Assembly: GCA_025093555.1 (NCBI GenBank)
Contig: JAIWNF010000021.1
Location: forward strand, 558,001 to 622,000
Length of the DNA stretch: 64,000 nt
Reading direction: 5' to 3'
Origin: Circinella umbellata
Lineage: Eukaryota > Mucoromycota > Mucoromycetes > Mucorales > Lichtheimiaceae
The translations under genes and the position numbers were made by a program. A model generated the notes under the pieces. The model ran no database searches. It saw only the letters and a list, made by a program, of their open reading frames with translations, and was not told the origin of the DNA. This document shows, in pieces, positions 54,371 through 55,192 of this stretch; position 1 is the stretch's first letter; every line of letters begins with the position of its first letter.

Positions 54371-55192
54371 ATGTCAACAACTGGAAATCAATCAGGCGAT
54401 GAAGGTGATCTTGATCTTAAAGAGCAAGATCGTTATCTTCCTATTGCAAAGTATTTATTTACACGAGTTGCTTTCTTAATGTATAAATATGGATTTAATA
54501 TGTGGTTGCTAATAATCTTTACTTTGTAAATCAAATATATATACGTGTTCTATATATTTTTAGTGTTGCACGCATTATGAAGAAATCATTACCTGAAAAC
54601 GCGAAAATAGCAAAAGAAGCAAAAGAATGTGTTCAAGAATGTGTTTCTGAATTTATTTCATTCATTACTAGCGAATATCCTTTTTTATAAAAAAAAAGCG
54701 TGTGTCTATATTTATAGTGGATTATATGATCCACTTTTAAAAAAGAATCCTTAACCTTCTATTTTGTGTGTTTTTACAGCTAGCGATCGTTGCTTACAAG
54801 AAAAGCGTAAAACTATTAATGGAGAGGACATTTTGTGGGCAATGCAATCATTGGGCTTTGAAAATTATGCCGAAGCACTCAAAATATACCTTGCTAAATA
54901 TCGAGAGGTAAAACAACTTTTTGGCTTTTACATTACATGTGGATATAGACCATGACTAATAAATAAACTGCTGTGATGATTATTGTTATTTTTATTATAG
55001 ACTACTAAGTTGGAAAGAGCCACCTCATCTACAAAGGAAAAAGAAGAAGAAGGTTCAGCAGACTCAAAACAACCACAAGATCCACAAGCAACACAACAAC
55101 AGCTCTATATGCAACAACAGCAACAGCCACCTGTATCACAGCCAGGACAACCTCCAGCAAACATGTCCGGCAATTTTTATAACGGGCAATAA
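54371..55192 (+). CDS. hap3: NF-YB / Hap3 histone-fold subunit of the CCAAT-binding complex
   Basis: Four exons, 54371-54450, 54564-54674, 54778-54907 and 55001-55192, encode 170 residues. After a short acidic N-terminus ([20 protein letters not shown]) comes the whole histone-fold domain, residues ~23-112: [59 protein letters not shown] and [17 protein letters not shown]. This is near-identical to NF-YB/Hap3 of other eukaryotes. The tail is Gln/Pro-rich. The protein pairs with NF-YC/Hap5, then NF-YA/Hap2, to bind CCAAT boxes in the nucleus. Introns 1 and 3 are ordinary GT-AG introns; intron 2 has U12-type AT-AC signals and only this reading gives the conserved SEASDRC join. Confidence 0.95.
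54675..54777 (+). other. U12-type AT-AC intron in the NF-YB gene
   Basis: The intron begins ATATCCTTTT, the exact U12-type 5' splice-site consensus, has a TCCTTAAC branch-site consensus at 54748-54755, and ends TTTTTAC just before AGCTAGCG. There is no GT donor after the codons for FITS that would preserve the frame; splicing as AT-AC gives GA+A GCT AGC GAT, that is SEASD, as in other NF-YB proteins. Ending at the overlapping CAG instead would shift the frame. Branch A to intron end is about 23 nt. Confidence 0.88.

Follow-up and report, generated by a model that had tools for sequence, protein, structure and literature searches.

Is the second interruption of the NF-YB gene in the fungus Circinella umbellata a genuine U12-type AT-AC intron and, if it is, does it belong to this fungus alone or to an older history of the gene? 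A sequence-only reading of the locus had answered the first part with an AT-AC intron at 54675..54777 in an NF-YB/Hap3 gene of a Mucoromycota-like fungus, and both the gene and the fungal group proved to be as proposed. The window (i.e., the whole stretch of 64,000 nucleotides that was analysed; G000:C124:558001-622000) comes from the 50.8-Mb, 210-contig genome of C. umbellata (Mucoromycota, Mucorales, Lichtheimiaceae). The joined coding sequence comprises four exons specifying a protein of 170 aa, which matches HapC of 4g91 with an E-value of 3e-49 in a comparison with solved structures, shows the CBF/NF-Y histone fold with a score of 98.7 bits against the Pfam model CBFD_NFYB_HMF (PF00808) and is 99% identical to a public C. 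umbellata record in an unselected protein search. Weaker NF-YB-like matches were seen elsewhere in the genome on contigs C172 (48% identity) and C151 (36%). The features of the gene are as follows:

54371..54450, + strand: NF-YB exon 1, with the start codon at 54371 (joined CDS; protein matches NF-YB/HapC)
54451..54563, + strand: NF-YB intron 1, GT-AG, ordinary type (GTATTT...TTTTAG; joined CDS)
54564..54674, + strand: NF-YB exon 2, whose 3' end GA provides the first two bases of Glu64
54675..54777, + strand: predicted U12-type AT-AC intron, phase 2, 103 bases (motifs and frame; the genome has 8 more candidate introns like it)
54675..54684, + strand: predicted U12-type 5' splice site ATATCCTTTT of this intron (sequence read directly and by script)
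54748..54755, + strand: predicted U12-type branch site TCCTTAAC of this intron (sequence read directly and by script)
54778..54907, + strand: NF-YB exon 3, beginning with the third base of Glu64
54908..55000, + strand: NF-YB intron 3, GT-AG, ordinary type (joined CDS)
55001..55192, + strand: NF-YB exon 4, through the stop codon TAA at 55190-55192

Splice signals and reading frame of the candidate AT-AC intron

The candidate intron opens with the donor ATATCCTTTT (54675-54684), which conforms at intron position 1 to the U12-type 5' splice site [AG]TATCCTTT, carries a perfect branch site TCCTTAAC (54748-54755), from the end of which 22 bases remain to the end of the intron, and closes with AC (54776-54777). 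The pair ATATCCTT...TCCTTAAC, with its members 20-120 bases apart, occurs once in the window when both strands are considered, and 2 out of 300 order-1 Markov simulations of the window contained it one or more times.

The reading frame was followed by enumerating the in-frame joins of any dinucleotide class with donors at 54655-54699 and acceptors at 54755-54799. Among the 325 such joins, the peptide ITSEASDR emerges solely from AT-AC 54675-54777 and from its equivalent one-base slide, TA-CA 54676-54778; the earlier contention that the AT-AC boundaries are the only ones to restore the conserved histone-fold sequence thus stands as regards the restoration itself and has to be widened to admit the slide. 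The AT-AC join, which reads AGCGAAGCTAGC at the junction, unites exon 2 (ending in GA) with exon 3 (beginning with AGCT) to give Glu64-Ala65 and restores FITSEASDRC. The protein so joined aligns without a gap over the junction to the best three solved chains, namely HapC of 4g91, NF-YB3 of 7cvo and NF-YB of 4awl, which are fungal, plant and human, respectively. Alternative joins alter the peptide: AT-AG two bases further on (54677-54779, reading AGCGAATCTAGC at the junction) yields ITSESSDR, and GC-AG (54671-54779) yields ITTSDR. When the intron is retained, conceptual translation ends after ITSEYPFL, inside the histone fold, and hence minor splicing should be needed for functional NF-YB. With the motifs present and the frame restored by AT-AC and its slide alone, the proposed class and boundaries are upheld, and we regard it as very probable that 54675-54777 is a genuine U12-type AT-AC intron, predicted to be used with these boundaries.

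Putative relics of the intron in predicted NF-YB proteins

A wider view of this position came from protein searches, in which relatives were compared as predicted proteins and putative relics were read from protein letters. An unselected search with the joined protein listed 120 of 5829 matches; two further searches used relic-bearing queries, hence their counts are selected, and listed 120 of 6643 and 120 of 6824 matches. Pooling the three lists gave 273 distinct proteins, in which insertions were scored by alignment to a 92-residue core.

Among the 120 proteins listed in the unselected search, seven have core insertions, every one of which lies directly after Glu64 and starts with Tyr-Pro-Phe. 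They come from Circinella minor, Fennellomyces, Dichotomocladium, Apophysomyces, Gongronella, Absidia glauca and Gigaspora rosea, and Glu-Tyr-Pro-Phe is precisely what an unspliced GA followed by ATATCCTTT reads. At this place, a further five of the 120 have SES, and another two, which both carry the name Rhizopus microsporus, have ITT; these are the peptides that the AT-AG and GC-AG joins described above give for the C. umbellata gene. Thus, 14 of the 120 listed proteins are disturbed at the Glu64 codon, and the other 106 have Ala without insertion, a state that is uninformative regarding the intron, since one with a stop codon leaves no relic. The disturbance at the Glu codon is best explained by gene callers mishandling an AT-AC intron, although an SES protein, the Piromyces one for instance, may possess a true substitution.

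The pooled lists present a similar picture, in that 43 of the 46 core insertions found in the 273 listed proteins are at the place of this Glu. Ala directly follows Glu in 222 of the 273; the remaining 51 are made up of 18 insertions beginning Tyr-Pro (YP), 19 beginning with Tyr and another residue, 6 with SES, 2 with ITT and 6 others. The YP class divides into 12 YPF, 3 YPL, 2 YPS and 1 YPC. From the relic-aimed searches it gained, among fungi, a second Dichotomocladium protein, Rhizophagus clarus, Syncephalis and Thamnocephalis; among animals, the spider Caerostris darwini (two proteins) and the sea slug Elysia marginata; and, in addition, Gb_10622 (presumably a Ginkgo identifier), P0134, P0160 and P0167. 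By eye, the Caerostris and Elysia proteins resemble those of animals over the whole histone fold, which makes fungal contamination an unlikely source. In P0134, the insertion reads YPF...SLT-SI-TA and seems to hold a whole intron of about 72 bases, with an xTATCCTTT-like donor, a TCCTTAAC-like branch site (Ser-Leu-Thr) and an AC end, codon degeneracy permitting other spellings in such a back-translation. A comparison with other Mucoromycota, animals and plants had been suggested from the sequence; at the level of predicted proteins, relics occupy this very codon in other fungal phyla, two animals and a plant-like entry.

The insertions with Tyr and another residue appear to be of a different make. 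Among the 17 that were examined (the class also includes P0217 and P0256, and several of its members are without a name), 14 have, by eye, V, A, D, E or G after the Tyr, corresponding to G as the fifth base of the intron, like that of a U2-type donor, and 13 end in Arg-Ala, corresponding to an AG that precedes the third Glu base and a GCN codon. Those of the 17 that bear a name are land plants or green algae.

Some further sequences depart from these classes at the same Glu codon. The relics in P0160 and P0167 start with YPSS and end in RA, and are possibly from a GT-AG intron of either class. P0124, P0141 and P0161 have insertions beginning with Gly (GN, GE), which suggests that in some lineage the intron has moved by one or two bases. 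Separately, P0122, a Cricetulus griseus record, is a predicted NF-YB with a part of the histone fold tandemly duplicated, probably an annotation artefact.

Age of the intron position

Going by the relics at the identical codon in its relatives, the NF-YB intron is not peculiar to C. umbellata, and common descent is the likely reason for its recurrence, rather than parallel gain. A minor intron would accordingly have occupied this Glu codon ahead of the split between the fungal phyla; most likely the ancestor shared by fungi and animals would already have had it, and its origin possibly predates the divergence of plants. The position seems to be shared with the green lineage, with a different, mostly U2-like class there, and the simplest history would be that of an old U12-type intron turned U2-type in much of that lineage.

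The shared position might alternatively reflect independent insertions of minor-class introns at one codon. The green lineage offers the point in its favor, since the named proteins there are mostly U2-like at the position (14 of the 17 with Tyr and another residue, scored by eye, several of the 17 being without a name). Against it, the codon, phase and class (YP being xTATCC or xTACCC) are common to Mucoromycotina, Glomeromycotina, Zoopagomycota, the spider and the slug, and it is accepted that an intron can pass from U12 to U2 class while staying in place. Moreover, significant gain of minor introns is called extremely rare in the part of PMC10639083 consulted, which again counts against independent insertion. 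We therefore hold separate insertions to be unlikely and favor descent from a single old intron. With the position seemingly of U12 type in fungi and animals and mostly U2-like in green plants, it offers a handy test case for intron class switching.

The deposited protein and its AT-AG boundary

The deposited C. umbellata 'histone-fold-containing protein' (P0001) is letter for letter the product of AT-AG 54677-54779, with SESSDR, and differs from the AT-AC reading by one residue, Ser65 for Ala65. Splicing as deposited, with Glu-Ser-Ser-Asp in place of Glu-Ala-Ser-Asp, would find company in P0002, P0012, P0022, P0111 and P0159, which also have SES, and if the P0001 model rests on transcripts, the AT-AC boundary would be wrong. 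However, the U12 donor consensus begins at 54675 and not at 54677, and Ala directly follows Glu not just in the said 222 of the 273 listed proteins but also in the three aligned NF-YB-type solved chains. Further, other species present three mutually incompatible predictions at this place (YP insertions, SES and ITT), as expected when gene callers are confused by an AT-AC intron. Splicing as deposited is thus very unlikely in our estimate. In light of the preponderance of Ala and the fact that U12 donors start with ATATCC, the deposited record is taken to be the one in error, its SESSDR model probably being a mistake of annotation.

More generally, the AT-AC intron seems to corrupt public NF-YB models, and several such records, probably including that of C. 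umbellata, are suggested to contain an error in the centre of the histone fold. Conversely, Tyr-Pro-Phe/Leu after the conserved Glu supplies a protein-level signature by which unspliced minor introns may be spotted in public predictions.

Other candidate AT-AC introns in the genome

Introns were sought across the 50.8-Mb genome by strict consensus only. The pattern RTATCCTTN{51,81}TCCTTAACN{8,24}AC gave 11 matches at 8 distinct places, versus 2 matches for the reversed control. A shorter spacing without the AC, ATATCCTTN{20,50}TCCTTAAC, gave 5 matches versus 3 for the control, and hence no signal by count alone; four of the five are copies of one repeat, and the fifth, L004, lies outside repeats. 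A strict GT-type minor intron, GTATCCTTTN{30,60}TCCTTAAC, had no match in the whole genome and none in the control. A bias to AT-AC is not claimed from these figures, as the 30-60 spacing includes just two AT-type introns (L004 and L053) and the longer pattern required the AC.

The dispersed repeat is represented by near-identical copies at L001 1501-1563, L002 and L003 1501-1563 (both minus strand) and L005 808-870, each bearing a perfect ATATCCTT and TCCTTAAC pair that measures 63 bases end to end. None of these copies has a long open frame ending at the motif, and all four were left out of the count of introns; the repeat may be seen as a chance decoy or as a potential source of new minor-intron-like signals.

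In total, 9 candidate AT-AC introns, including that of NF-YB, were collected. All nine permit the choice of an in-frame join whose AC lies 12-22 bases beyond the branch motif, and several allow other in-frame joins as well. Beyond NF-YB, five of the eight are spanned at the junction by a Pfam domain scoring above cut-off: IBN_N (importin N-terminal), FancD2, Glyco_transf_22 (Alg9-like mannosyltransferase), DCP2 (box A) and Brr6_like_C_C. L043, L049 and L050 have no Pfam domain above cut-off over the junction, NCBIfam named none for them (one match being far below cut-off), and they are the weaker cases.

Components of the minor spliceosome

In minor splicing, U11 and U12 recognize the donor and the branch site, respectively, before U6atac pairs with the former. 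Applied to NF-YB, the ATATCCTTT donor would be recognized by U11 and the TCCTTAAC branch site by U12, U6atac would then pair with the donor, and AC would serve as the acceptor in joining exon 2 to exon 3. From the sequence we infer that the AT-AC boundaries are actually used in this manner.

The genome search that the sequence-only reading had recommended for the snRNAs of this machinery recovered a part of them. Rfam models run over the genome found one match each for U11 (C131; 71.2 bits, cut-off 39), with the 5' end AAAAAGGG as well as GCAUAAUUUUUU, and for U6atac (C24; 53.9 bits, cut-off 33), with the cores AAGGAGAGA and CCCCUUGA..AAGGA. The absence of all U12-specific snRNAs, which had been named as one of two outcomes that would refute the intron, is therefore not what this genome presents. 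A homologue of the PDCD7 family (U11-59K) was also found, as a single match that scored 24.8 bits by itself and 31 together with its neighbours when the genome was searched, and 31.8 on the open frame (cut-off 27). The other part of that search returned negatives that cannot show absence: the Rfam model for U12 found none with 42 of 4627 first-look candidates scored, and that for U4atac none with 48 of 2042 scored.

Motif searches for U12 gave a comparable result. Its 16-base core, allowing up to 2 mismatches, occurs at 174 places versus 237 for the reversed control, i.e., there is no signal, and Rfam scans of 30 of these loci (L007-L036) revealed no U12. TGCC combined with the branch-recognition core occurs at 2 places versus 3 for the control, and the U12 core combined with an Sm-like site at 5 versus 1; both of the former were scanned with Rfam and the latter were read by eye and likewise scanned, none proving to be U12. 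Besides U6atac (L006), the Rfam scans of U12 candidates produced three matches far below gathering scores (two microRNA families and one lncRNA region).

The U6atac candidate (L006 1501-1653) has AUCUUUGGCA for the consensus AAGGUUAGCA, in the stretch where U6atac should pair with U12 and U4atac. This departure predicts matching changes in U12 and U4atac, and we infer both to be present in this genome. That the ordinary U2-type spliceosome removes the NF-YB intron, its U12-like motifs being a relic or chance, is hardly credible: some AT-AC introns are indeed spliced by the major spliceosome, and the Rfam searches for U12 and U4atac came back empty, but donor and branch site fit the U12 consensus perfectly, the same pair is found in 8 other candidate introns of the genome, and U11, U6atac and PDCD7 are present.

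Significance and comparison with known systems

With this intron, a subunit of a master transcription factor is added to the set of genes expected to need the minor spliceosome for their expression. What is new is probably that the NF-YB minor intron is old and widely shared; in the literature searched, no paper was found tying NF-Y or NF-YB to minor introns, and tables of human and Arabidopsis minor introns may list it. A sensitivity of NF-Y output to minor splicing, as had been imagined from the sequence, and any regulatory role are speculation. In its boldest form, slow, U6atac-limited splicing of the ancient intron would set the amount of NF-Y, coupling the minor spliceosome to CCAAT-box transcription, and this coupling would be the reason for the persistence of the intron since before the divergence of animals and fungi, and perhaps plants; we consider this quite improbable.

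Phycomyces and Rhizopus are, like Circinella, Mucorales. The parts of PMC2846911 and PMC10639083 consulted report minor introns and snRNAs in Rhizopus, Phycomyces and Rhizophagus, and hence one in a gene of Mucorales is no surprise; the same parts state that convincing minor introns were not found in Ascomycota and Basidiomycota, and make no mention of NF-YB. The early-diverging fungus Rhizophagus irregularis has 205 minor introns, a subset of which occupies positions that are conserved across other fungi, animals and plants, and, unlike C. umbellata as recovered here, where U12 and U4atac are missing from the set, it has all four minor snRNAs (PMC10639083, in the part consulted). By one of two rules in the consulted part of PMC2846911, Phycomyces blakesleeanus has 9 AT-AC and 8 GT-AG introns of U12 type and Rhizopus oryzae has 1 and 2, respectively. 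The Rhizopus ribosomal protein S13 intron is GT-AG (PMC2846911, same part), unlike the AT-AC intron of C. umbellata NF-YB; the U12 introns of Phycomyces and Rhizopus share with the latter both the order and the splice-site class.
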